This document shows, in pieces, positions 4,330 to 17,767 of a stretch of DNA of 44,783 bases. This DNA is from Candidatus Chloroploca mongolica (GTDB taxonomy: Bacteria > Chloroflexota > Chloroflexia > Chloroflexales > Chloroflexaceae), in the NCBI RefSeq assembly GCF_004762035.2, contig NZ_SIJK02000039.1, positions 1-44,783 of the forward strand, given 5' to 3'. The translations under genes and the position numbers were made by a program. The notes beneath the pieces were generated by a model. That model did no database searches and was not told the DNA's origin. It saw only the letters and a program-made list of their open reading frames with translations. The stretch's first letter is position 1, and every line of letters starts with the position of its first letter.

Positions 4330-7300
4330 CTAGCGCCGCACCAGCGGCAGGTAGACCCGTTGCGAGGTGATTGGGCCAATTGTTGGGGTGGGCGACGGCG
4401 TCGGCGATGGGCCGGCGGTGGGTGAGGTGGTGGGCGAGGCTGACGGGCCAGCGGTGGGCGAGGTGGTGGGCGTAGCTGAAGGCTCCGCGGTGGGTGTAGG
4501 CGTAGGCGCAAGGGGATCACTGGCGCTGCGCTCGACGGCACCGATATCGCATGCTGGCCCAACCGGGCGGGCGATGCCCCGTTGATCGGTGGCGGGGCAG
4601 GTACTCCCGGCTGTGTCTACCGCCGGACTGTCGGCATAGGGCGGATGGTTTAGGGTCGTGCCGCCGTAGATGCCAAGCGGGGCGAGACGCGGATCCAGGG
4701 GTGCTTGGAGTGTGCCGCCCTGATCGCCAGTGGCGTCAAATAAGCAGGAGCCGTCACCAATGAGGTTATGGCCTCCAGAACTGAGGCGGTCTGGACGCTC
4801 AGCAGCATTCCTACTGAACGTGCAATCACGATTACCGTTAGCAGCAATAATGTTGCCCGTCGCAGTGACGCTGCCGCCTGCCCAGAAGATACCACTGGGG
4901 CTGTTGTTGGCAATCGTATTGTAATGCAGCAGCACAGGTTGTACATTTTGGGTGGTGTTGGCTTCGACAAAGAGAGCACCACCAGTACGAGCGGTATTTT
5001 CGCTCAGGGTACTATTCTCGATCCGCATGTCACCAGTTGCCGTTCCATAGTTGGTTCCCAAATATACTCCACCGCCCGAACCTGCCTCATTATTGGTAAG
5101 CGTGCTACGTTCAATGCGCAAGGTCGCACTCGGCCCCGTCGTAAATGAGAGGAAGTAGACGCCACCGCCATTTAGATCAGCACGATTCGCGCTGATGGTA
5201 CTATCAATAATCGTCAATGAAGCTGTCGCGTTGATCCCACCACCTCTGCCTTGGGTTTGGTTGTCACGGATGATGCTCTTCACGACGACGAGTTGCCCAC
5301 TTCGATGAAAAATCCCGCCACCGACTCCTGCTTGATTAGTTTCGACCATCGCATTCTCAAGGGTCAGATCGCCTTGATTATAGATGCCACCACCGACATC
5401 TGCTTGATTGCCTGCAATCACCACATTCTCAAGGGTCAGGTTAGCGCGACTATAGATCCCACCGCCATTGCCGTCGGTAGCGCCATTGCGAATCGTCAAG
5501 TTGCGTAAGACGACCTGGTTGGTTTGCAGATCAAAGACGCGATCCAGCCCCCCGCCATCAATGATCGTCTGATCTGGCCCAGCGCCTTCGATCGTCAGCG
5601 TATCGTTGATCACCAATGGCCCTGCCCCGTTCAGGCTGAGTTGGTAGACCCCGGCGTTCAGTTCAAGGACATTCGCGCCAGGGAGGGCGTTGACCAACGC
5701 GACCGCTTCACGCAGCGCACAATCTTCACGCGTGCAGGTGCCGTTGTCGTCGCTGGTTTTGGTGACAATGGAACCTGCCGTGCTGAAGGTGGGCGAAAGA
5801 TCAAGGAAGATGTTGTCGGCGCACTTGACGCGCAGGTTAGCGGCGAGCAATGGGTAATCGGGCAACGTGACATTGGCACTGCCGGTATTGGGCGTGCTGG
5901 CGAGCAGGGTGGTGTAGCTGACACCGGCGTCTTCGGTGAGATCGATCTGCACATTGGCGCAACTAATCGGCGCTTGGTCGGTGTTGGCAACATCCCACTG
6001 CACCGGGATTTGTTCACCTTGGGCAAAGCGTTCGCCGCCGGCAATACTCGTGATCTGGAAGGGGCCAGCAGCCGCCACGACCGCCAGGGTCGTCGTATCG
6101 AAGGCAAAAGCCCCCGCGCCGGGACGGTTATCGCGAGCGGTGAAGCGAAACGTGAGCGTGCGATTCGTCGTTGGCAGCGTTTCACCAAGCGTCTCTTCAC
6201 GGGTCACAATGTCGAGGTACTGCGGGAAGAGTCGGTTCGGGTTGGCGCTCGGCGGCGAGGAACGGAACAATGGGCGCGCCCCATCATCGCTCAGCGGTGG
6301 CGAGGCTGGCCCCAGGTCGTACTGTTCCCAGGTGAAGGTCAGTTGGTCGCCATCGGGATCACTGGCCGTACCAAGCAACTCAAACGGCGTGCGGGCCGGG
6401 ATGGTGTAGCTCGGGCCAGCACTGACCACCGGCGGGGTGTTGCCGGTGGGCACGTCGGTGCCGCCACAGGCCAGGGCGTTGCCACTGCGGGGGTAGGTTG
6501 TCATCTGTTCAAGGCTGTAGCTGTGGTAGTAAAGATCAACAGCAGTGCGGAAATTGATGATATTTTCGGGGGCGCAGCTACCCGCATAGCTCATGATCGT
6601 CGAACCGCTACCGGGTTCGTAGGCTGTGGTTGGTGAACGTTGACTTCTACCAAGCAGATTACCACATGCTCCACTTTCGCTATTGAAGGTATGTTGGGAT
6701 CCGAATTGATGACCTAACTCATGGACGAAGGTTCCAATGATACGGGCACTTGTCGGTTGCCAAGACCCACTATTTGCCCTTCCCCGATTCTGAAAGAATT
6801 CGTTGCACCAGAGAAACGCCGCAATCCCACCGCTTCCAGTCGTGAGCAGATGTCCAATATCGTAGGTTCTTCCGAGGGTCGCTTCGATCACTGTGTTTGA
6901 TTCACCGAGCCAAATTTCGCGTACATCGTTATCGGGATCGTATGCGGTGAACGGATCAGTAGCTGGATCAAGAAAAAAGAGTTGATCGGTGTTTTCGGCC
7001 AGGATGAACCGAAAGGCAATCTCGCGCTCAAAGATCGCATTGGTCGCATTCACCAACGCCACGACTTCCGCCATGACACTCGCGGTCGTCCCGCCGTGGA
7101 ACTGGGCATACTCGCCGGTGGTAGCAATCGCCAAGCGAAAGTCGTGGCGCATGCTGCCGTTGCTGCCGCTCTGGGCGAGAGTAATGGCCTGAGCAGGCTC
7201 CAGTTCGGGTTCGGGCAGCCATTCCAAGGCGCGCTGATCGCTGGAGGCGAAGGCGATATGCAAGGTGCGATCCGGCCCGCCGTAGGGCGTGACGAAGCTG

Positions 7301-7779
7301 CTGGTAGTAGGCCCAATGATAATAGCATGATAGCCATTTTGGCTGCGAGTGAGCCGGGCGGTCACGCTGGGGTCGTCGCGCTGCTGCCCGAGGTAGGTGC
7401 GGATCTGCGGATAGCGGGCGGCAAGTTCGGGGGCCATGACCGGACTTTCCACCAAGGCAAAAGAAGCCACACTACCGTCGGGCAGCGGCAGATCGAGCAT
7501 CGCAGCGCGCTCCCAGGCGCGGGGGCTGTCCTCGCGTGGCGCACGGTTGAGCACCGCATCGATCGGTTCTTCCACCGCAAGTAGCGTCACATAGCGCAGG
7601 GGATCATCGGCGGGCGGTTCGGCGGCGAGCGTAGGGCCAGCGGGGATCTGCCAGAACGGAGAGGTTTGTCCCGTAGCAGAATGCGACAGCGCGGTTGGTT
7701 GCGCCGGTTGAGGCAGGCTAACGACGATCGCGATCAAGGCCGTGACGACCAGACTAGCGAGCAGCAAGCGTGCGAGCAT
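4330..7779 (-). CDS. Secreted metzincin (reprolysin-like) metalloprotease with beta-helix domain
   Basis: The protein has 1,149 residues. A signal peptide spans residues 1-25 and a propeptide-like region runs to about 210. The metzincin domain has HELGHQFGSQH at 353-363, which fits HExxHxxGxxH with three zinc-binding His and the catalytic Glu, and a Met-turn IMSYA near 395-399. A PKD/Ig-like region follows (about 455-580). Then comes a CSLREA-type entry (CTREDCALREAVALVN) into a right-handed parallel beta-helix (NLTIRNGATDGNGGGIYS-like rungs, about 680-1040), a Thr/Pro/Ser spacer with SPTAGPS repeats, and the tail VYLPLVRR. It is probably an exported surface protease. GAAAGGGAAGCCC precedes the ATG. 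It shares its leader and C-terminal tail with the gene at 195-3305. Confidence 0.88.
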   Translation of the reverse strand: MLARLLLASLVVTALIAIVVSLPQPAQPTALSHSATGQTSPFWQIPAGPTLAAEPPADDPLRYVTLLAVEEPIDAVLNRAPREDSPRAWERAAMLDLPLPDGSVASFALVESPVMAPELAARYPQIRTYLGQQRDDPSVTARLTRSQNGYHAIIIGPTTSSFVTPYGGPDRTLHIAFASSDQRALEWLPEPELEPAQAITLAQSGSNGSMRHDFRLAIATTGEYAQFHGGTTASVMAEVVALVNATNAIFEREIAFRFILAENTDQLFFLDPATDPFTAYDPDNDVREIWLGESNTVIEATLGRTYDIGHLLTTGSGGIAAFLWCNEFFQNRGRANSGSWQPTSARIIGTFVHELGHQFGSQHTFNSESGACGNLLGRSQRSPTTAYEPGSGSTIMSYAGSCAPENIINFRTAVDLYYHSYSLEQMTTYPRSGNALACGGTDVPTGNTPPVVSAGPSYTIPARTPFELLGTASDPDGDQLTFTWEQYDLGPASPPLSDDGARPLFRSSPPSANPNRLFPQYLDIVTREETLGETLPTTNRTLTFRFTARDNRPGAGAFAFDTTTLAVVAAAGPFQITSIAGGERFAQGEQIPVQWDVANTDQAPISCANVQIDLTEDAGVSYTTLLASTPNTGSANVTLPDYPLLAANLRVKCADNIFLDLSPTFSTAGSIVTKTSDDNGTCTREDCALREAVALVNALPGANVLELNAGVYQLSLNGAGPLVINDTLTIEGAGPDQTIIDGGGLDRVFDLQTNQVVLRNLTIRNGATDGNGGGIYSRANLTLENVVIAGNQADVGGGIYNQGDLTLENAMVETNQAGVGGGIFHRSGQLVVVKSIIRDNQTQGRGGGINATASLTIIDSTISANRADLNGGGVYFLSFTTGPSATLRIERSTLTNNEAGSGGGVYLGTNYGTATGDMRIENSTLSENTARTGGALFVEANTTQNVQPVLLHYNTIANNSPSGIFWAGGSVTATGNIIAANGNRDCTFSRNAAERPDRLSSGGHNLIGDGSCLFDATGDQGGTLQAPLDPRLAPLGIYGGTTLNHPPYADSPAVDTAGSTCPATDQRGIARPVGPACDIGAVERSASDPLAPTPTPTAEPSATPTTSPTAGPSASPTTSPTAGPSPTPSPTPTIGPITSQRVYLPLVRR

Positions 7780-8663: not shown

Positions 8664-8775
8664 GGGCGATTGCATCATACGAAACCGGAATACAACGGGG
8701 CACCCGCAAGGGGTGCCCGTACCGGGGCGGGGGCCGAATCCGGTGTAGGGGCACCCCTTGCGGGTGCCCTTGCGG
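8664..8775. repeat. GC-rich palindromic repeat cluster
   Basis: AGGGCGATTGCATCATACG, then GGGGCACCCGCAAGGGGTGCCC and GGGGCACCCCTTGCGGGTGCCC hairpins. 8724-8775 repeats 1-52 of the window. 8481-8663 upstream holds no gene I recognise. Confidence 0.7.
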
Positions 8776-9263: not shown

Positions 9264-9404
9264 ATGACGGCACAGCCGCAACGCACGTTCACCGAAATGG
9301 CAACCGGGCTCTATACCTATCCTGATGTCACGGTGGTGGGTGAGCAACCCCGATTTCTGGACAGGCTCATGCCGTCCCTCAATAATGGTAGCGGCATGCA
9401 ATGA
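9264..9404 (+). pseudogene. Uma2-family nuclease remnant
   Basis: The frame from ATG 9264 encodes MTAQPQRTFTEMATGLYTYPD and continues VTVVGEQPRFLD. ATGLYTYPDVxVVxxxPxFLD is a hallmark of Uma2 (DUF820) PD-(D/E)XK-like proteins, normally about 190 residues and well inside the protein. Here the N-terminus is fused almost directly to it and the C-terminal half is missing. The 3' end overlaps the antisense YoeB gene. Confidence 0.6.
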
Positions 9405-9633
9405 TGATGATCTCGTTCGCAGTCGCAGCGTACACCAGACGATGCTCGTCGTTAATGCGTCGTGACCAGTAACCGCTGAGATCGGCCTTGAGCGGCTCCG
9501 GCTTGCCGATGCCTTCAAATGGTGAGCGCATAATATCTTGGATCAACAGATTGATGCGCCTGAGTAACCTGCGATCTTGCGTTTGAAACCATACGTAGTC
9601 TTCCCAGGCCGAACGCGAAAAGCAGAGTTTCAT
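9379..9633 (-). CDS. Txe/YoeB-family toxin
   Basis: The 84-residue protein is the usual length for YoeB. It shows FSRSAWEDYVWFQTQDRRLLRRIN, then SPFEGIGKPEPLKADLSGYWSRRINDEHRLVY and the terminal CRYHY, all signature positions of the family (Glu in GxGKPEPLK, Arg in SRRI, terminal HY). YoeB binds the ribosomal A site and cleaves mRNA. It overlaps the antitoxin stop by four bases (ATGA type), so the pair is co-translated in antitoxin-toxin order. Confidence 0.93.
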   Translation of the reverse strand: MKLCFSRSAWEDYVWFQTQDRRLLRRINLLIQDIMRSPFEGIGKPEPLKADLSGYWSRRINDEHRLVYAATANEIIIIACRYHY

Positions 9634-9884
9634 ACCTCAAAGAGTTTCCGTTCTGCGATTGCGCCATCTGTGACTTCGGCGATCGAGGTGCGTAAGTGAG
9701 CCGCATTGGCGGGACTTGCAAGCAGGTAGCGCGTTTCTTGCCAAGCCGCGTATTCTTCCTGTGGTAACATCACAACCTGTTGCCCACTTGCCAAAAGCAC
9801 AATAGTTGGAGCGGCATCGTCAAGAACTTGCGTGAGCAACCGTTCCAGATCCCGCTTGGCTTCCTCAAGGGTGACGATCTGCAT
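9630..9884 (-). CDS. YefM/Phd-family antitoxin
   Basis: The 84-residue protein starts at ATG 9884, 11 bases after AAGGAG. Upstream in-frame sequence is repeat, so the longer frame is rejected. The N-terminus MQIVTLEEAKRDLERLLTQV and LLASGQQVVMLPQEEYAAWQET follow the YefM pattern, with an acidic/basic C-terminal toxin-binding tail. It should neutralise the YoeB-like toxin encoded immediately downstream. An AT-rich stretch at about 9905-9955 probably holds the promoter. Confidence 0.9.
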   Translation of the reverse strand: MQIVTLEEAKRDLERLLTQVLDDAAPTIVLLASGQQVVMLPQEEYAAWQETRYLLASPANAAHLRTSIAEVTDGAIAERKLFEV

Positions 9885-9989
9885 ATGCTTGCATACTCCT
9901 TCGGTTGCTTGTAGCGATTGAACTTCATTCGCTCTTAGTATAGCGCGATTGTTCTGTGGGTTCAAGATCGGCACCAGTTGCAACCAGGG

Positions 9990-10416
9990 CGATTGCATCT
10001 TCCGTGTATGCACCCCACCAGGGCACCCCTTGCGGGTGCCCGCCCGTACATCGGATGCGGCCCTGGCCCCGGTAGGGGCACCCCTTGCGGGTGCCCGCCC
10101 GTACACCGGATTCGGCCCTGGCCCCGGTAGGGGCACCCCGTGCGGGTGCCCGCCCGTACACCGGATGCGGCCCCCGCCCCGGTAGGGGCACCCCGTGCGG
10201 GTGCCCCGTTGGATCCGGTTTCGTATGATGCAATCGCCCTGGCCCCGGTAGGGGCATCCCTTGCGGGTGCCCGCCCGTACATCGGATGCGGCCCGGCCCT
10301 GGTAGGGGCACCCCGTGCGGGAGCCCGCCCGTACACCGGATTCGGCCCCCGCCCCGGTACGGGCACCCCGTGCGGGTGCCCCGTTGGATCCGGTTTCGTA
10401 TGATGCAATCGCCCTG
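9990..10416. repeat. Array of about seven 54-66 bp GC-rich palindromic repeats
   Basis: Units start at about 10021, 10076, 10131, 10186, 10252, 10306 and 10361. Each has a GGGCACCCC-TTGC-GGGTGCCC hairpin and a spacer like GCCCGTACACCGGATTCGGCC that is itself repeated. GATGCAATCGCCCTGG occurs at one internal joint and at the end. There are no unique spacers, so it is not CRISPR. All long open frames here are spurious. Confidence 0.85.
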
Positions 10417-10439: not shown

Positions 10440-12914
10440 TTACGAACCATCCCCAAGCTCCTCCAGCCGCCCCCGCGCCCGCTCGGTCAACGGGTGCTGC
10501 GGCCCGTAGGCGCTGCTCAAGAGGCTTTCGAGCAGGCGTAATTCGACCAGCGCGGCGTCGCGTTTGCCCAGCATGATCAATGGTTCGACTGCGTTCAGCC
10601 GCGCTAGCAAGGTCGTCGGGTGGCGCTCGCCGAGTACGTCGCTGAGGCTCACCACGGCTGTGCGCTGCGTCTCACGCGCTTCGGTCAGGTCGCCCAGTGC
10701 GGCCAGGGCGGTGCCCAGGTTGATCTGCGCTGTGGCGACCCGTGGGTCGTTTGCGCCAAAGAGGGCGCTGGCTGTGGCGATGAGGGGCCGTAGTTGTGCG
10801 GCGGCTTCGCGGTGAAATTGGAGTTTGCTGAGCAAGAGCGCTAGGTTGTTGCGGGCCGCCAGGGTGGTGTTGTGCTCGGGGCCTCCCGTCGCTAACGCCA
10901 ACGCTAGCGCCTGTTCGTAGTGGTAGCGTGAGGCCGCGTAGTCGCCCAGTTCGCGCAGCAATTCGCCCAGGTTGTTGTGGCTCTCGGCTAGGGCCATGTC
11001 GCCCGGTGGAAGAATGCGCTCGCGGATGGCGAGCGCCTCTTCGTAGAGCGGGCGCGCTGCATCGCGGTTCCCCAGGAGCCGCTGCCATTCGGCTAGGTTG
11101 GCGATTACTTCGGCCCCCAGTGGGGTTTCGAGTTGAGCCTGGGTTGCTAGGGCGTCATAGGCCCGCTGTGCGTACGCTCGGCTGCTGTGTAGGTCGCCAA
11201 TCAACTCGCAGAGGAAGGGCATGCTGTTGAGCAGATCCGGCGCGGGTTCGCGGTTGCTTGCGTCAAGGCGGGCCATGTGCGGCAAGAGCAGCGGGGCTTC
11301 GCCGGGTTGCTGGTTCAGGTAGGCCTGTTCGGTGCGGGCGATCAGGGCGGTCACCAGCGCGGTGCGTTGCGGTGCCGCGCTCACCGTTGCTTGCGCACAG
11401 TCGGCCACGAGACGGTGGACGCGCAGCAGGCCTACGTCACTGCGTAACAAGCCCAGGTCGCGTAGGCGCCGTACGGCGAGCCGTGCCGCCCCCGCTGCGC
11501 TGCTGGTCGCGGCCGCCAGCAGTTCGCCGTCGAACGGTTCACCAGGCGCCAACCAGCCCACTGCGCCGAGCATCGTGCGGGCCAGGGCGTCGCCAGGGGT
11601 TGCTGGATCGAGTTGCTCAATGCTCAGGGCGAAGGTGCGCCCTAGGTGTTGCTCGTGGCGCGTGAGCGATGGCGCCGCGCCTTCCCCTTGTAGGGCCGTG
11701 TGTTCGAGTGGCCCCTGGGCCTGGAGTTCGCGGAGAAAGTTCGCTGGATCGCCCAGCCTCCGGTCGTCCTGATAGGTTTCGAGGTAGCTCCCGGCCAGGT
11801 GCAGCGCCAACGGCAGCCCGGCCAGTTCGTTCGCAATTGCGGCCAGGTGCGGATCGTTGCTGGCAAGATCGGGGCGGTAGCGGTGCAGCAACGCCACGGC
11901 GTCGGCAGAGGCAAGCTCGTGTAGCGGCAACTCGCTCACCCCGAGGCTGCGCGGCCAGCGGGCGCGGCGACTGGTCAGCACCACCCGGCAGCCGCCGCTC
12001 GTCGGTCGCCAGCGCAGCAGGGTCTCGTCCTCTTCGCAGTTGTCGAAGATCAAGAGGCGTGGAACCGGCGCTTGCCAGGCTTCAAGTACCAGTGCGGCCC
12101 GTTCGCTCAGGGTGAGGTCGCGCCAGTCGGGGTGTTGCACCAGTCCCGTTGCCCCACACACGGCCAGCTCGCGCTCAATTGCAGTCGGGTCGGCGCAACT
12201 GATCCAGAAGACGCCGCCGCTGAAGTATTGTCCATACCGATGAACCAGTTCGCTTGCCAGGCTTGTCTTGCCCACCCCACCAATGCCGGTGATCGCCACG
12301 GCTTCGCCCACCCCCTGATCGCGGAGCAGGCGCACCAGGTTTTGCAATTCCTGGTCCCTGCCCCCAAAGAGCCGCGCCGGGGCAAGTGGCATGCGATGGG
12401 GCACAGGAAGCGTGGTGGGCGGTGGCGGTGGCCGGGTCGGATCGAGGTGCAAGGTGGCACTAGGTGCGCCGGGTGTCGCGGGACTGGCCCGACGCACTAG
12501 GTCGTCAATCGCGGCTAGCAGGGTGACAGGATCGGGCTGTGGCGCGACTGAAGGCAATTCGATCGCAAGGTGCTGTTGGAGCGCTGCACGCCAGATCTCG
12601 GGTGGGAAGAGGCCACGCTGCAGCACCTCGGGGTAGCGGTCGAGGGGGAGGCGTGTCGAAATAAAGAAGGCGACTGCCTCCTCTGGGGTGCAGCGCTCAG
12701 CCTCGGGGAGCCCGGTTGTCAGCGCCTGCACGACGCGCAACGCCGCCTCGGGATCAGTGCTGAGGGCCCGGCTCTGATCGAGATAGGCGCGGTAGAAGTC
12801 ATCGTAGCTCCCAAAGCCGGCCCGGGCCGCCAGCGCCTGCTTTTGCAAACCGGCCCGGAGCGTCCAGGTATTGATTAACGTTCGCACCGCCTGTTTTGCC
12901 GCAATGTCATCCAT
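10440..12914 (-). CDS. NB-ARC STAND ATPase with C-terminal TPRs
   Basis: The protein has 824 residues. Residues 1-150 form a helical N-terminal region of no family I recognise, followed by a Pro-rich linker. The NB-ARC NTPase starts near 180: Walker A GIGGVGKTS 210-218, Walker B LLIFDN about 287-292, RVVLTSR sensor region near 330, GLPLAL 366-371. A winged-helix region and TPR-like helical pairs follow to the C-terminus (ESHNNLGELLRELGDYAASR and related, about 645-824). STAND ATPases of this type are signal-gated oligomerising switches in bacterial conflict and signalling. It lies 230 bases downstream of the CHAT gene on the same strand with its own candidate promoter. GAGG lies about ten bases before the ATG. 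Confidence 0.88.
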   Translation of the reverse strand: MDDIAAKQAVRTLINTWTLRAGLQKQALAARAGFGSYDDFYRAYLDQSRALSTDPEAALRVVQALTTGLPEAERCTPEEAVAFFISTRLPLDRYPEVLQRGLFPPEIWRAALQQHLAIELPSVAPQPDPVTLLAAIDDLVRRASPATPGAPSATLHLDPTRPPPPPTTLPVPHRMPLAPARLFGGRDQELQNLVRLLRDQGVGEAVAITGIGGVGKTSLASELVHRYGQYFSGGVFWISCADPTAIERELAVCGATGLVQHPDWRDLTLSERAALVLEAWQAPVPRLLIFDNCEEDETLLRWRPTSGGCRVVLTSRRARWPRSLGVSELPLHELASADAVALLHRYRPDLASNDPHLAAIANELAGLPLALHLAGSYLETYQDDRRLGDPANFLRELQAQGPLEHTALQGEGAAPSLTRHEQHLGRTFALSIEQLDPATPGDALARTMLGAVGWLAPGEPFDGELLAAATSSAAGAARLAVRRLRDLGLLRSDVGLLRVHRLVADCAQATVSAAPQRTALVTALIARTEQAYLNQQPGEAPLLLPHMARLDASNREPAPDLLNSMPFLCELIGDLHSSRAYAQRAYDALATQAQLETPLGAEVIANLAEWQRLLGNRDAARPLYEEALAIRERILPPGDMALAESHNNLGELLRELGDYAASRYHYEQALALALATGGPEHNTTLAARNNLALLLSKLQFHREAAAQLRPLIATASALFGANDPRVATAQINLGTALAALGDLTEARETQRTAVVSLSDVLGERHPTTLLARLNAVEPLIMLGKRDAALVELRLLESLLSSAYGPQHPLTERARGRLEELGDGS

Positions 12915-12999
12915 ACGTTGCTATCCTCACCACTCCCCAATTCTGGCGCTTACTTTCGCCAGCCTTGCCGACTCTCCACGGCCCTCTCGCTTTATCCTG

Positions 13000-13026
13000 G
13001 TTATACACCCGGGTGTACCTGAACAA
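13000..13026 (-). promoter_or_regulatory. Candidate promoter with palindromic operator for the NB-ARC gene
   Basis: On the minus strand TTGTTC (13026-13021) and TATAAC (13005-13000) are 15 bases apart. The perfect 14-base palindrome TACACCCGGGTGTA (13004-13017) fills the spacer and touches the -10. The short spacer lowers confidence in the promoter, but the palindrome itself is clear. The rest of 12915-13143 holds no gene. Confidence 0.4.
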
Positions 13027-13143
13027 CTTTGTCACCGGCCGCTGTGTCGGTGGCTTCATCGCAATGAGGTACACCATGCCCGCACAATTTTGGCTCTGTC
13101 TCGTCGGCGATCCCGGCAATGAGAATGGTGGTGGTGGCTAGGC

Positions 13144-15972
13144 TCAACGACAGACAACATGAAACCCTCCCCAGATGTAGGGCGTATGCAACATCGAACC
13201 GGTGACCTCTGGGCGTGCGCACAGGTCACGCTGCGCGTGGGCCAGCGCCGTTGGGGCGTCATGACCACCGGCCAGAGCCTGGTAGAGTGGTTCGAGGAGG
13301 GCGAGGAGGCCTTGATCGTAGACCGTCCAGAGGCTCGCTATGACGCTGCGCGCACCTGCGGTCAGTAGCGCCCGGCTGAGACTCAAGACTTCATCGCCGG
13401 GTAAGACCGCCCCGGCACCGCCTTCGCACGCGGTGAGGATGACCAGATGCGCCTGCAAGCGCAACTGGACGACGTCGTCGAGCAGCATGTCATCGTCGGT
13501 GAGCTTGATCTGAGCCAGTAGGCCATCCGCAGACCCGAGTTGGGCGTGGCTGGCGATCTGGATCAAGCCGTAACGCTCGAGCGCTCGCTGTGCATTGGCG
13601 GCGCGGAGGGCAGCCAGGGTGGCGGCCTGATCGCGGAGTTGCACCACGGGGCCGGGCCACGTCCGTGCTGCGATCTCCAGGTTCGCGCCGACGAGCGGCA
13701 ACGGCACGGCCCGGGTCCCAAACTCGCTGCAACCGATCAGCAAGGCCGGGGCGTGGGGATCGAGTGATGGCTGTGTCCGCGCGGCACGCAGGTTCGGCAA
13801 GATCTGCAGGATGGCCTGCTCGCAGAGCCACGCTTCGTTCACGCGTAGCGCAGCCCAGGCGAGCCCGTGCAGTGGCCCCGAGGGGACGATCAGGAGACGA
13901 TGCTGCGGCGCGAGCCGGGCCGTCAACCATGTAGGTAACAGGCATTGCCCCAGTGCGCTGAGCGTCGCCCACGCTGGTCGTTCAGCTTCTCGCAGTCGCG
14001 CCAGGTCGCGGTAGGTCATCAGGCGCTGGCCTGGCAGACAGGCCCGGTCGAGAAGTTGGTGTAGCTGCTGGTCATAGGGCCTCGTGGTACAAAAACTCCC
14101 CTCAGCGGTGACGCCAACCAGCAACAGCGCATCGTCAGTGAAGAGCGGGCAGAGCAGTGTCCACGCAAGGCCATAGGCCGCCGTCAATTCGTGGCGTAAC
14201 CGCACGGGATCGCAGGGTTCGACAGGTTGGTGTGGGGGCAGGGTGACATGGCGCGTGTGCAGCAGCGTCGTGAGGTAGTGTTCCACCGCAGCGTCGCGTT
14301 GGGCTGGCTCTGCCGAGCTCGACAGCGCCTCGCGCAACGCTCGCCCCGCCGCCTCACGCACTCCCGCCGTGGCAGGTTGGTGTGTCGCCTGGATCAACTG
14401 GTATTCCAGGCTCAAACTGTGCTGACTGTCGGCCAGCCGAAGGAGTGCGTCGTGGTCTTCCAACTGCACAGCCAGCTTCAGGGCCGCGTTATGCAAATCC
14501 TGGGCCTGCCGAAAAATCCCACTTGAGGCATGCTCGCTGGCGAGGCGACGACGCATCCCGGCCACGAGGGTTACGGCGGTGAAGTAGGCGTCGCGTGCCT
14601 CGTGCAACGCGCCCTTCTGCACCGCAATGCGCCCAAGTGCAGAGTGGACACGCCAGAGTTGGGCTGGACGATCGGCAAGATCGGCGGCAATCACATGCAA
14701 AAGCCGATCAGCTAGCTCAACGTCCCCGGCTTCAAGCTGGAGCCAGGCCAGTTCCAGTTGACAGGCGGCGGCGGCACCCCGGTTGCCCAGGGCCACGAAA
14801 CGGCTCGCCGCCGTCGCCCAGGTCTCGGCAGCCTCGGTCGTGCGCCCCAGTCCAAGCAACGCTCGCGCCCGCGCCTCCAGCAGTTTACATGCTCCCAGGT
14901 CATCACCGAGTCTTTCACCCTCGGCGGCCAGGGTGTCGGCCAAGGCCAGGGCGTGCGCCGGATCACCCTGGGCACAGGCGACCAGCACTTGGTTGCGCCC
15001 CGCGACGAAGGCAAGAAACGCATGCCCCCGTTCTCGGTAGGTCTGCGCGGCACGCTGGTAAACCGCCATCGCCAGATCGTAGAGTCCGCTCACATGCGCG
15101 ACGGTTCCGAGATTGAAATCGCATCCGGCTGCGTGGGCGTGACGACCAAGCGCCAGAAAGCTGGTACGAGCGGCGACGCCGCGGGCGATCGCGTGCCCAT
15201 AGTCATTCTGCAGATAGGCGACCGTCCCCAGGTCGCGTTCGCAGAGGGCCACCCGGAAGGGGAGATCGAGGCGTCGGTAGATGGTGTGGGCCTGCTCAAG
15301 CATCTGCTTCGCCGTAGCCAACGCTTCCCGCCGAAGCGCGAGCCAGCCTTGCTCAAACGCAACCCGGGCCACTTCGGCGCGGTGTCCCAACTGGCGAAAG
15401 AGGGCACCTGCCTGGTTGAGGCATTGCTGGGCTGTCGAGAAATCACCGCAGCCAATCGCGGCGACGCCGCTGACGTGGAAGAAGCGCGCTTGCAGGGCCA
15501 GGCTCGTGCGGGCTGTCACGAGCGGCGTGAGCATTGTTGTCAGGGTACGCGCCTCACGGTAGCGCCCGAGCACGTTCAAATGCGCCACTTGCTCACAGCG
15601 TGCTGCGAGCATCGCGTCGCCTCCTGGTAGCGTATGACACCTCGCGACGTGGTCTTCCCAGCCTGCCTGAAGTTCCGCCCCGCGACCCTGCAATTGCGCT
15701 AGCATCAACTGCGCACGTTCGCACAACAGGTGTGTCGCATGATCGGAGGGTGGCAGGTTTGCTGCGGCGGTGCCTAGCGCCTGCGCGGCAGCCTCAAGGC
15801 GTTCCCAGCGCAAGAGCGCCCAGCCAATGGCGAGCTCTTCATAGGCTGTTCGCGTACCCCGCTGCGACCACTGGCAAGCAATGCGCCCACTGCGCCGAGG
15901 ATCGCGCTCGGCCAGTTGCATCAGGCGTACCCACTGCGCCGTGGTTGTCTGGCGGGAACTCTGCAACGCCAC
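13144..15972 (-). CDS. TPR-CHAT protein (caspase-like peptidase)
   Basis: The 942-residue protein uses a GTG start, sharing one base with the upstream TAG. Residues 1-560 are TPR-like helical repeats rich in AxxxxGxLxxA patterns. The C-terminal 280 or so residues form a CHAT domain: LLIVPSGPLHGLAWAAL, then QIASHAQL with the candidate catalytic His near 809, LVILTACEGG with the candidate Cys near 849, the GARSVIASLW strand and the closing PYIWGGFHVV. CHAT domains are caspase/separase-clan cysteine proteases, and TPR-CHAT is the protease of type III-E CRISPR (Craspase). It follows the zinc-finger gene with a one-base overlap, so the two are translationally coupled and sit downstream of the sigma gene. 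Substrate unknown; the adjacent zinc-finger protein is the obvious candidate. Confidence 0.9.
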   Translation of the reverse strand: MALQSSRQTTTAQWVRLMQLAERDPRRSGRIACQWSQRGTRTAYEELAIGWALLRWERLEAAAQALGTAAANLPPSDHATHLLCERAQLMLAQLQGRGAELQAGWEDHVARCHTLPGGDAMLAARCEQVAHLNVLGRYREARTLTTMLTPLVTARTSLALQARFFHVSGVAAIGCGDFSTAQQCLNQAGALFRQLGHRAEVARVAFEQGWLALRREALATAKQMLEQAHTIYRRLDLPFRVALCERDLGTVAYLQNDYGHAIARGVAARTSFLALGRHAHAAGCDFNLGTVAHVSGLYDLAMAVYQRAAQTYRERGHAFLAFVAGRNQVLVACAQGDPAHALALADTLAAEGERLGDDLGACKLLEARARALLGLGRTTEAAETWATAASRFVALGNRGAAAACQLELAWLQLEAGDVELADRLLHVIAADLADRPAQLWRVHSALGRIAVQKGALHEARDAYFTAVTLVAGMRRRLASEHASSGIFRQAQDLHNAALKLAVQLEDHDALLRLADSQHSLSLEYQLIQATHQPATAGVREAAGRALREALSSSAEPAQRDAAVEHYLTTLLHTRHVTLPPHQPVEPCDPVRLRHELTAAYGLAWTLLCPLFTDDALLLVGVTAEGSFCTTRPYDQQLHQLLDRACLPGQRLMTYRDLARLREAERPAWATLSALGQCLLPTWLTARLAPQHRLLIVPSGPLHGLAWAALRVNEAWLCEQAILQILPNLRAARTQPSLDPHAPALLIGCSEFGTRAVPLPLVGANLEIAARTWPGPVVQLRDQAATLAALRAANAQRALERYGLIQIASHAQLGSADGLLAQIKLTDDDMLLDDVVQLRLQAHLVILTACEGGAGAVLPGDEVLSLSRALLTAGARSVIASLWTVYDQGLLALLEPLYQALAGGHDAPTALAHAQRDLCARPEVTGSMLHTPYIWGGFHVVCR

Positions 15973-16697
15973 TACCCACCTTCTGCTCGTGCAAGCGCAA
16001 TGGCAAGCTCGGGGCCATCCGGATCAGTAAGCGTGGCCAGCGGCAGGTGCGTCAGCAAGGCCACCTGATCATCACGCAGCGCCTGCACAAAGACCTGTTC
16101 GCCCAGACCAACCAGTACCGTCCCTGGGTGAGGAGGATGCACCCGTACTTCGAGGCACCACTGGTCAACATCGTGCGCCCCCACCGAGAGGCTGATCCGT
16201 CCTTCTGGTACATCTTCTTCAGCGACCAGTTGAAGTTCAGGCGTCGCACTGTTCCAGGCTGCTCCCGCTGCCAATTGGGGCGCAAAGACGTTCGCCAGGA
16301 AGGTGTGCGACAGACGGAGCGTCGGCTGATGCGCCTGGGGAAGCGGCGCAGTCAAGACCCCCGCGTCGGTTGCATCCATCAGCACGGCGGTATCGTGGTA
16401 CACCTCGGCGCACAAAGGACACGTCCACAGGTGCCACCAAACATCAGGAAATGCGCGTGCAGCGGCAACTGCCCCTTCACTCCGCTCTACATCGAGCATC
16501 GCTGGCAGATCCATTTCCGTCGTTGCACAACTCGGATCACGTGGTGCCGGAATACCAATGCGTTCAGCGAGAAACGTCAGCAACGCCGTCTGGCAACGAG
16601 CGCAATCCTGCACATGGGCCACCAGGGCCACAGGCGGAGGGGCCTCATCGTAGGCAGCAAGCCAGTGATGAACCTCAACACACGGCGAAGAACTCAT
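15972..16697 (-). CDS. Double zinc-finger putative anti-sigma factor
   Basis: The protein has 241 residues from ATG 16697, preceded by GGAAGG at good spacing; the ATG at 16712 lacks one. Two HxxxCxxC motifs are visible: HVQDCARC (28-35) and HLWTCPLC (89-96). That is the zinc-associated anti-sigma (ZAS) pattern, here duplicated. There is no membrane segment, so a cytoplasmic anti-sigma is expected. The C-terminal 90 or so residues look like a beta-sandwich (RISLSVGAHDVDQWCLEVRV). It lies between a sigma-like gene and the CHAT protease gene. Anti-sigma function is inferred from motif and context. Confidence 0.7.
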   Translation of the reverse strand: MSSSPCVEVHHWLAAYDEAPPPVALVAHVQDCARCQTALLTFLAERIGIPAPRDPSCATTEMDLPAMLDVERSEGAVAAARAFPDVWWHLWTCPLCAEVYHDTAVLMDATDAGVLTAPLPQAHQPTLRLSHTFLANVFAPQLAAGAAWNSATPELQLVAEEDVPEGRISLSVGAHDVDQWCLEVRVHPPHPGTVLVGLGEQVFVQALRDDQVALLTHLPLATLTDPDGPELAIALARAEGG

Positions 16698-16717
16698 CGT
16701 CGATCCTTCCATCTACG

Positions 16718-16791
16718 TAGGGAGGGCTTGGCGTCCCTGAGACCCTCCCTATCTCCTGAATGTGGCAAGTGCAGCTTGCAGACATTCAGGA
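16718..16791 (-). terminator. Two hairpins between sigma and zinc-finger genes
   Basis: The first has 10-base arms TCCTGAATGT (16754-16763) and ACATTCAGGA (16782-16791) with an inner GCAAG/CTTGC stem; it covers the sigma stop codon. The second has arms TAGGGAGGG (16718-16726) and CCCTCCCTA (16743-16751). Neither has a U-tract, so partial termination or mRNA processing is more likely than full termination. Confidence 0.45.
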
Positions 16792-17574
16792 AGCAGCCTG
16801 CTGTTCATCGCCAGCTGCATACCACTGACGAATGACAGGATCATTGCGGAGCACCGTCCGCGCAAGTTTCAGCAGGGCGCGCACCCGTGACTCGTGGAGA
16901 TTGACCAGGCTCCCGATTTCAGCCGAAGTCCGTTCCTCCAGGGCCCACAGCCGAAAAATTGGTAATAGGCGTTGATCAGTATGGGCAGCCAGCACAGCCT
17001 GCACCCGTGCCGCGAGCAAGCGTGCATACGTTGTCTCCTCGTGGGACACGGCCAACGCCTCACCTGACCGGGTTGTCGTGAGGAGGTCCAGCGACACACT
17101 CGGTGCTGAACGTCGTTGCGCATGGCTCATCCGCACATAGCGGTGCGCACTACGCACCACCACACTATAGGCCCACGAGAGAAACCGGCTTTGATAACGA
17201 TAACTCGGGAGCGCCTGGGCCAGATCGCCACGGGCAATCTGCGCCAGATCATCAAGCTCGAGCGAGCCATCGCGTGACCAATCGATCCCCGCACGGCGCA
17301 ACACCCCAAGCACTTGTTGTGACCACTTCACCCAGGTCTCGTGGTGCGCGGGGTGATGGGCATCACGAAGTGCAGCTACCATGCGATGATCGAGATGGTA
17401 ATGTAACACCACCATTGATTGACGCTCGGGCGGGACAGCAGTTATCAATGGTGTCAACGCATGCACGTAATACTCGTATGTGAAGGCATCCAATTGCCAC
17501 CCATACGCTTGATTGCACGCACTAATGATCTGGCGGCAAGCAAGCAAATTGCTTGCATCAGAAACAACTGCCAT
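16786..17574 (-). CDS. Sigma-70-family RNA polymerase sigma factor (ECF-like, divergent)
   Basis: The 262-residue protein has a region-2-like helical core (LDDLAQIARGDLAQALPSY and SRFLSWAYSVVVRSAHRYVR) and a C-terminal region-4 helix-turn-helix (LPIFRLWALEERTSAEIGSL and HESRVRALLKLARTVLR). Residues 1-90 are extra and unrecognised. It leads a cluster with a zinc-finger anti-sigma-like protein, TPR-CHAT protease and NB-ARC ATPase. A TATACT -10-like box lies about 45 bases upstream (minus strand, near 17615), with no clear -35 and no clear Shine-Dalgarno sequence. Autoregulation is possible but not shown. Confidence 0.72.
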   Translation of the reverse strand: MAVVSDASNLLACRQIISACNQAYGWQLDAFTYEYYVHALTPLITAVPPERQSMVVLHYHLDHRMVAALRDAHHPAHHETWVKWSQQVLGVLRRAGIDWSRDGSLELDDLAQIARGDLAQALPSYRYQSRFLSWAYSVVVRSAHRYVRMSHAQRRSAPSVSLDLLTTTRSGEALAVSHEETTYARLLAARVQAVLAAHTDQRLLPIFRLWALEERTSAEIGSLVNLHESRVRALLKLARTVLRNDPVIRQWYAAGDEQQAAS

Positions 17575-17704: not shown

Positions 17705-17767
17705 CCTGGGAGCGAGGGCGTCTCGCCCTCAAAGGCATTCCGAGGGCGGGACGCCCTCGCTCCCAGG
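17705..17767. repeat. Palindromic repeat (CTGGGAGCGAGGGCG type)
   Basis: Perfect 18-base arms (17705-17722 and 17750-17767) enclose a second nested CGCCCTC/GAGGGCG stem. It lies between the divergent sigma gene and the XRE remnant/prfC. This belongs to a widespread repeat type that also appears as hairpins between operon genes. Confidence 0.75.

Follow-up and report, generated by a model that had tools for sequence, protein, structure and literature searches.

Among the σ factor systems described in bacteria, two of those closest to the locus considered here are associated with clustered regularly interspaced short palindromic repeats (CRISPR). According to the available text of the respective reports, the protease Csx29 of type III-E CRISPR cuts Csx30, which binds and inhibits CASP-σ (PMC10028731), and CalpL, a SAVED-Lon protease whose activator is cyclic tetra-adenylate, cuts the anti-σ factor CalpT (PMC11417357). 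Neighbourhoods in which caspases and extracytoplasmic function (ECF) σ factors occur with other adaptors are described as well, in the accessible part of the source (PMC8195603). Among the literature matches listed, cutting of a σ inhibitor by a CHAT protease is reported for type III-E CRISPR only. Here we analyse a locus of Candidatus Chloroploca mongolica (contig NZ_SIJK02000039.1; 44,783 nucleotides (nt), referred to as the window, which is one entire contig, C93, of the source genome) in which four open reading frames (ORFs), all on the minus strand, encode an ECF-type σ factor, a soluble anti-σ-like protein with two zinc-finger motifs (hereafter the zinc-finger protein), a TPR-CHAT protease and an NB-ARC/TPR ATPase (Table 1). 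A preliminary description of this DNA had proposed four adjacent genes of these families that would form a protease-gated transcription switch, and both coordinates and domain scans agree with the gene content. The unit of conservation is three genes, those for the ECF σ factor, the anti-σ-like protein and the TPR-CHAT protease, as is evident from gene content, domains, conserved catalytic residues, linkage in several arrangements, genome co-occurrence and correlated divergence. Among the literature matches listed, which left copies on preprint servers and most subscription papers outside their scope so that an earlier account may exist, there is no account of such a module.

Conservation of the three-gene unit

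The first gene encodes a σ70-like factor, as had been proposed: it matches the σ70-ECF model TIGR02937 with 55.6 bits (cut-off 42.9) and Pfam region 2 with 25.2 bits (cut-off 24), two region-4 models remain under their cut-offs (18.6 and 18.3 bits), and the PDB profile matches of its family are σE, σH and SigW. Its linkage to the zinc-finger gene was assessed on 58 zinc-finger homologues with a profile score of at least 80, of which four lie too close to a contig edge and 54 could be judged (L079 and L033 are the same contig, and L079 alone was counted). An upstream gene on the same strand matches TIGR02937 (E 0.001) at 49 of the 54 loci, with 53 genes scanned and no such gene at L080. With σ profiles of our own, a number of which derive from the same genes, a σ gene is found within 900 nt at 51/54 loci, the exceptions being L080, L090 and L107. 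The zinc-finger protein is encoded beside an ECF σ gene, as are zinc-type class I anti-σ factors, and families and position together suggest σ and anti-σ roles for the first two gene products.

The third protein contains a CHAT domain (PF12770, 138.4 bits, cut-off 24) with His809 and Cys849 present; its structural model is confident in the TPR part only. Of 42 CHAT proteins aligned, four were set aside, two because contig ends cut them (L089 and L092), one because it comes from a split gene, of which it represents the N-terminal half (L079_5328), and L079_2, in which a weak CHAT match is cut by the locus end with the His visible and no Cys. Equivalents of both residues occur in 38/38 of the aligned proteins that contain the region, which extends to the homologues the intact dyad noted earlier for the window protein. 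Among the 38 well-flanked loci, with 4 kb or more of sequence on each side, 27 have a CHAT gene scoring at least 80 bits no further than 5 kb away, versus about 1.9% expected from the CHAT density in the window genome (6.3 Mb, 12 CHAT matches); for all 58 loci, which were picked through the zinc-finger gene and without regard to CHAT, the number is 40. Many linked loci are close orthologues, and a binomial tail for this recurrence is illustrative only. Relative to the zinc-finger gene, the CHAT gene of the 40 loci is found on the opposite strand upstream (13) or downstream (13) and on the same strand downstream (12) or upstream (2); because of these four arrangements, the triad is not one inherited operon. 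At three loci (L041, L044 and L047) one CHAT gene is flanked by two σ/anti-σ-like pairs.

The association also holds at other levels. Of 34 window-type CHAT genes, 22 lie about 5 kb or less from a zinc-finger match (hand count over 82 genomes, two pieces in genome G322 being taken as one gene). Strong zinc-finger matches (E 1e-20) and window-type CHAT proteins (E 1e-100) co-occur in genomes (22/26 versus 5/56; Fisher 1.7e-11, uncorrected for relatedness), and the distance matrices of 13 complete triads correlate (r 0.91-0.96, Mantel p 0.0001); with one near-duplicate removed, r is still 0.86-0.95 and p does not exceed 0.0006. All genome searches were made within the phylum; the loci fetched comprise the stronger matches and a choice of weaker ones, and since scoring in these searches was confined to the top first-look candidates of each genome (no more than 32, 7, 12 or 10 by search), counts and absences derived from them are lower bounds. 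The σ, zinc-finger and TPR-CHAT genes stay linked, with the dyad kept, far beyond this genome. The preliminary description had named confinement of the linkage to this genome as a sign against its proposal; because linkage recurs in many genomes, this does not apply to these three genes.

The anti-σ-like protein family

Members of the zinc-finger family consist of one or two C..HxxxCxxC units, a linker of variable length and a C-terminal β domain. The window protein carries HxxxCxxC at residues 33 and 94, each with an upstream cysteine (C11 and C62), and the top hydrophobicity of any 19-residue stretch is only 0.96; with both motifs located and no strongly hydrophobic segment, its earlier characterization as a soluble protein with two such motifs stands. 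Among 19 window-type sequences, the first unit is kept with C11 in 15 and H33, C37 and C40 in 18 each, and is lost in L033; in the second unit C62 and H94 are each present in 16 and C98 and C101 in all 19, tyrosine replacing H94 in L005, L038 and L039. A single-chain structural model places the motif within a predicted helical N-terminal domain (helices at residues 10-116), with block means of the predicted local distance difference test (pLDDT) of 71-87 over residues 11-100. The model is weak, because the alignment behind it held only the window sequence and one related sequence, particularly in the linker (residues 118-159, pLDDT mostly below 50) and in the C-terminal domain, and it gave no match in PDB at E 0.001. 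The linker, variable in length among homologues and mostly of low confidence in the model, may for these reasons be the natural cut place of the protein. A P-x-P-D-L-S-F-L-like motif is found in the linker of 18 of 24 second-type proteins, with a pattern that was loosened after viewing them, and may serve in docking or cutting.

A Pfam scan of the window protein matched no family. The family profile gave six matches in PDB to E 10, all weak, namely the anti-σ factors DdvA (E 0.074) and RsiW (E 0.16), neither of them significant, a TetR protein and three zinc fingers. As a single query, the window protein finds homologues in at least 13 of 301 genomes of the phylum at E 0.001. A profile of 18 zinc-finger proteins finds matches in at least 47 of 82 genomes of the order, many of them weak and confined to the first zinc unit, and a mixed profile of 19 does so in at least 98 of 400 genomes of the phylum at E 1e-5, where many matches are short ORFs that are taken as ordinary zinc anti-σ factors. 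A contig scan of genomes gave one relative, and no match came from searches of plasmids with either the zinc-finger or the CHAT protein. Variants that lack HxxxCxxC occur as well: two further triads of σ factor, β-domain protein and TPR-CHAT protease in the window's own genome (L006, 530-4660; L007, 6296-10642) have none, and neither do the anti-σ-like proteins of the second pairs of L041, L044 and L047. At 33.2 bits, the C-terminal domain of L007 is slightly above the CarboxypepD_reg cut-off of 32.3 bits, and that of L006 (18.4) falls below it.

Accessory genes of the module

The fourth protein matches NB-ARC (PF00931, 33.5 bits, cut-off 23.5); its score with the FxSxx_TPR model NF040586 (235.6 bits) is below the cut-off of 300, and by this model it does not qualify as FxsT (FxSxx-COOH TPR protein). 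Full-length orthologues are found in 3 of 82 genomes of the order, with at most 12 candidates scored per genome: the window genome, G321 (83%) and G322 (81%), the next-best relative being a partial match of 46% identity. In G322 the NB-ARC gene follows the CHAT gene on the same strand with one ATPase gene between them; in G321 it begins 223 nt from one contig end and the CHAT gene stops about 50 nt short of another contig end, so the two may be adjacent. With residues 171-560 as the query over the annotated loci, matches are strong in the window and L086 only and weak in L009 (25.8 bits) and L041 (20.2 bits), the latter being the only other triad with an NB-ARC-like match adjoining. Because the same-genus genomes G222 and G260 show neither an NB-ARC orthologue nor a window-type triad among the scored candidates, the cluster with NB-ARC may travel as a unit. 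The inclusion of NB-ARC in the conserved unit, as first proposed, does not hold, given orthologues in so few genomes that are linked to the module in the window and G322, and a role as core component was rejected on the rarity of orthologues and of loci with a match.

In other lineages a protein family with an HExxH motif is found near the triad (L096, L097, L099-L102, L114, L126-L130, L143 and L144). Its profile gave 14 matches, four of them the profile's own members; all 14 contain HExxH and nine have a hydrophobic N-terminus. Pfam named none of the six proteins scanned as a metalloprotease, so that this label rests on the motif. The window itself encodes, near the module, a reprolysin-type metalloprotease (4330-7779, minus strand; HELGHQFGSQH) with a hydrophobic N-terminus. 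The HExxH-family profile does not match it, and on this profile kinship with the HExxH neighbours of other triads was rejected.

A possible protease-gated σ switch and its alternatives

We consider the chances about even that the three genes form a cytoplasmic, CRISPR-free, protease-gated σ switch. In such a switch, the zinc-finger protein would act as an anti-σ factor, a role suggested by its motif, its position and precedent; the helical N-terminal zinc units would hold the ECF σ factor, and the C-terminal transthyretin-like domain would provide a handle or a site for docking. The CHAT protease would be activated by a signal sensed by way of the TPR superhelix, with the NB-ARC protein as a possible relay in this lineage, and would cut the anti-σ protein, probably in the linker, and thereby free the σ factor for its target genes. 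Cleavage by CHAT is something we infer from the linkage and from the two experimentally described CRISPR triads, and it is likewise conjecture where the cut falls, what triggers the switch, which genes are targeted and what part, if any, NB-ARC plays.

Several observations weigh against this model. No CHAT gene occurs within 5 kb at 11 of the 38 well-flanked pairs (L004, L005, L034, L038, L039, L083, L088, L091, the second pair of L094, where the closest CHAT is about 5.4 kb off, L107 and L125), and 12 of the 34 window-type CHAT genes, including the second copy of the window genome at contig C75, have no pair nearby. Among ten loci fetched from outside the order (L133-L142), an adjacent CHAT gene above 80 bits is present at L137 and L138 only; L139 has a CHAT-like match of 77 bits and L136 just two, of 46 and 55 bits. 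L133-L135 and L140-L142 lack a CHAT nearby and resemble the loci of ordinary membrane anti-σ factors in that the σ gene overlaps the zinc-finger gene and the protein contains a strongly hydrophobic segment. With the zf-HC2 model, matches are confined to four of 18 homologues, the best at E 0.092, and the window protein is not among them. The linker motif of the second-type proteins was not seen by eye in the window type, which leaves no cut-site motif common to all clades, and a single cleavage motif for all clades was rejected. Lastly, the gene neighbourhood fits a protease of the anti-σ protein and a target gene of the σ factor alike. Of the circuit first proposed, the three-gene linkage and the dyad are upheld, the place of NB-ARC in the conserved unit is not, and the CHAT-less pairs weaken it.

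The strongest rival, which position by itself does not separate from the switch, makes CHAT a target of the σ factor: the pair would sense a signal itself, for instance by zinc thiols or the C-terminal domain, and drive CHAT, elsewhere together with the HExxH protein, as a caspase-like effector. Redox-sensing zinc anti-σ factors are known. The frequency of CHAT-less pairs and the presence of the HExxH protein near the triad in some lineages favour this explanation, as does the strand opposite to the pair on which the CHAT gene lies at 26 of the 40 loci, since it must be transcribed separately there. However, the zinc ligands are missing in L006, L007 and the second pairs of L041, L044 and L047, so that zinc-thiol sensing cannot apply throughout; a CHAT gene common to two pairs is no less compatible with an upstream regulator; and footprinting of alignments upstream of the σ and CHAT genes revealed no defensible shared promoter motif. 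On balance, we regard CHAT as an output as rather unlikely.

An ordinary σ/anti-σ pair tied only by shared regulation to a CHAT protease that acts on a different substrate as part of an associated stress or cell-death pathway seems improbable to us. Known CHAT substrates are diverse, and both this diversity and the CHAT-less pairs would suit such an arrangement, whereas recurrence in four arrangements, co-occurrence in genomes and correlated divergence suggest a tighter link. Very improbable is the stricter form of the switch, the four-part circuit first proposed, with NB-ARC as an indispensable sensor on which CHAT activation depends. In its favour, the genomes other than the window's that encode full-length orthologues, G321 and G322, are precisely those with the closest triads, the NB-ARC gene lies downstream of CHAT in G322, and neither orthologue nor window-type triad is seen among the scored candidates of G222 and G260; the few loci matched by residues 171-560, the 229-nt gap between the NB-ARC and CHAT genes here, the inserted gene in G322 and the contig ends in G321 speak against it. 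Should the protease-gated switch operate without CRISPR in many lineages, a general rule would become testable, from the input of TPR-CHAT to the place of the cut and the genes switched on, and nature offers variants for comparison: proteins with and without zinc ligands, one CHAT with two pairs, and pairs without CHAT.

Gene layout and neighbouring features

The positions of the genes and their domains are collected in Table 1.

Table 1. Coordinates of module genes, domains and sites in the window, and of the second gene pairs at three other loci.
Feature	Position	Strand	Basis
ECF-type σ factor, 262 aa, N-terminal extension ahead of region 2	16786..17574	-	TIGR02937, Pfam, family alignment, PDB profile
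Soluble anti-σ-like protein, 246 aa: two C..HxxxCxxC units, linker, C-terminal β domain	15972..16712	-	
First zinc-site unit, C11/H33/C37/C40	16593..16682	-	homologue alignment
Second zinc-site unit, C62/H94/C98/C101	16410..16529	-	homologue alignment
Linker, residues 118-159, candidate cleavage region	16236..16361	-	alignment and model
C-terminal transthyretin/CarboxypepD_reg-like β domain	15975..16235	-	homologue alignment; low-confidence model
TPR-CHAT protease, 942 aa	13144..15972	-	Pfam, alignments
TPR superhelix, residues 40-477 of TPR-CHAT	14542..15855	-	Pfam and model
CHAT domain, residues 670-939; His809 13546-13548, Cys849 13426-13428	13156..13965	-	Pfam and alignment
NB-ARC/TPR ATPase, 824 aa, lineage-restricted accessory gene	10440..12914	-	Pfam, orthologue searches
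Second σ/anti-σ-like pair, far side of same CHAT	L041 3482-5001		
Second σ/anti-σ-like pair, far side of same CHAT	L044 14464-15945		
Second σ/anti-σ-like pair, far side of same CHAT	L047 3662-5143		

The zinc-finger and CHAT genes overlap by one base (TAGTG on the minus strand). The overlap, from which joint production of the two proteins had been deduced, is real; it is not conserved, homologous CHAT genes being found on either strand and on either side. Joint production is not general, because CHAT-less pairs and opposite strands are both frequent, and the varied gene arrangements rule out constant co-translation. Two inverted repeats, 9 and 10 nt long, lie around the gap between the σ and zinc-finger genes (16718-16791); they are not conserved, since in L085 no more than 6 nt separate these genes. 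Upstream of the σ gene there is an inverted repeat with 26-nt arms and 11 nt between them (17705-17767), and a promoter scan gave two promoter-like sites on the other strand (shuffle mean 0.9). A terminator scan gave one candidate versus a mean of 5.5 in shuffles, i.e., no enrichment. Just downstream of the NB-ARC gene are GC-rich direct repeats of about 55 nt (10007-10416 and 8715-8769), and a YoeB-like toxin (133.8 bits) and Phd/YefM antitoxin (59 bits) are encoded between the NB-ARC and reprolysin genes (9379-10136, minus strand). C-rich and G-rich repeats with 48-nt spacing occur close to the contig end (43554-44774).

Comparison with described systems

The zinc-type class I anti-σ factors, such as RsiW, resemble the window protein in the HxxxCxxC motif with its upstream cysteine, the predicted helical N-terminal region and the adjoining ECF σ gene. 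The window protein differs from them in its two tandem units, its C-terminal β domain, its protease gene partner, the lack of a strongly hydrophobic segment and a score below the zf-HC2 threshold. The systems of EACC2 and TRADD-N with caspases likewise bring a caspase-superfamily protease, an ECF σ factor and a TPR protein into one neighbourhood; their adaptors, as given in the accessible part of the source, are EACC2, TRADD-N and DUF1822 (PMC8195603), none of which Pfam detects in any of the four window proteins. CalpL, CalpT and CalpS of type III CRISPR also form a triad of protease, anti-σ factor and ECF σ factor in which, according to the available text, the protease cuts the anti-σ factor (PMC11417357), whereas the protease here is a TPR-CHAT protein and scans of the window proteins detected no SAVED or Lon family.

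The type III-E CASP/Craspase system co-encodes, like the window, a TPR-CHAT protease, a σ-binding inhibitor and an ECF σ factor, for which the available text proposes proteolytic release (PMC10028731). In contrast, the window CHAT protein is not Csx29 (NF041237, 28.2 bits versus 300), the zinc-finger family has zinc units and a transthyretin-like domain, and the window contains no CRISPR-like array: a direct-repeat search for copies at most 120 nt apart gave five families whose intervening stretches are alike by eye, unlike spacers. Csx30 is not among the six PDB profile matches of the zinc-finger family to E 10, in a PDB copy whose content of Csx30 chains was unchecked. A broader view, which we hold with slightly less than even confidence, is that σ factor, anti-σ factor and TPR-CHAT protease make up a widespread stand-alone module of Chloroflexota, a bacterial counterpart of caspase signalling with a transcriptional output and with exchangeable accessory genes such as those for the NB-ARC ATPase and the HExxH protein, and that the type III-E cassette of Csx29, Csx30 and CASP-σ would be one CRISPR-captured or parallel example of this broader class.

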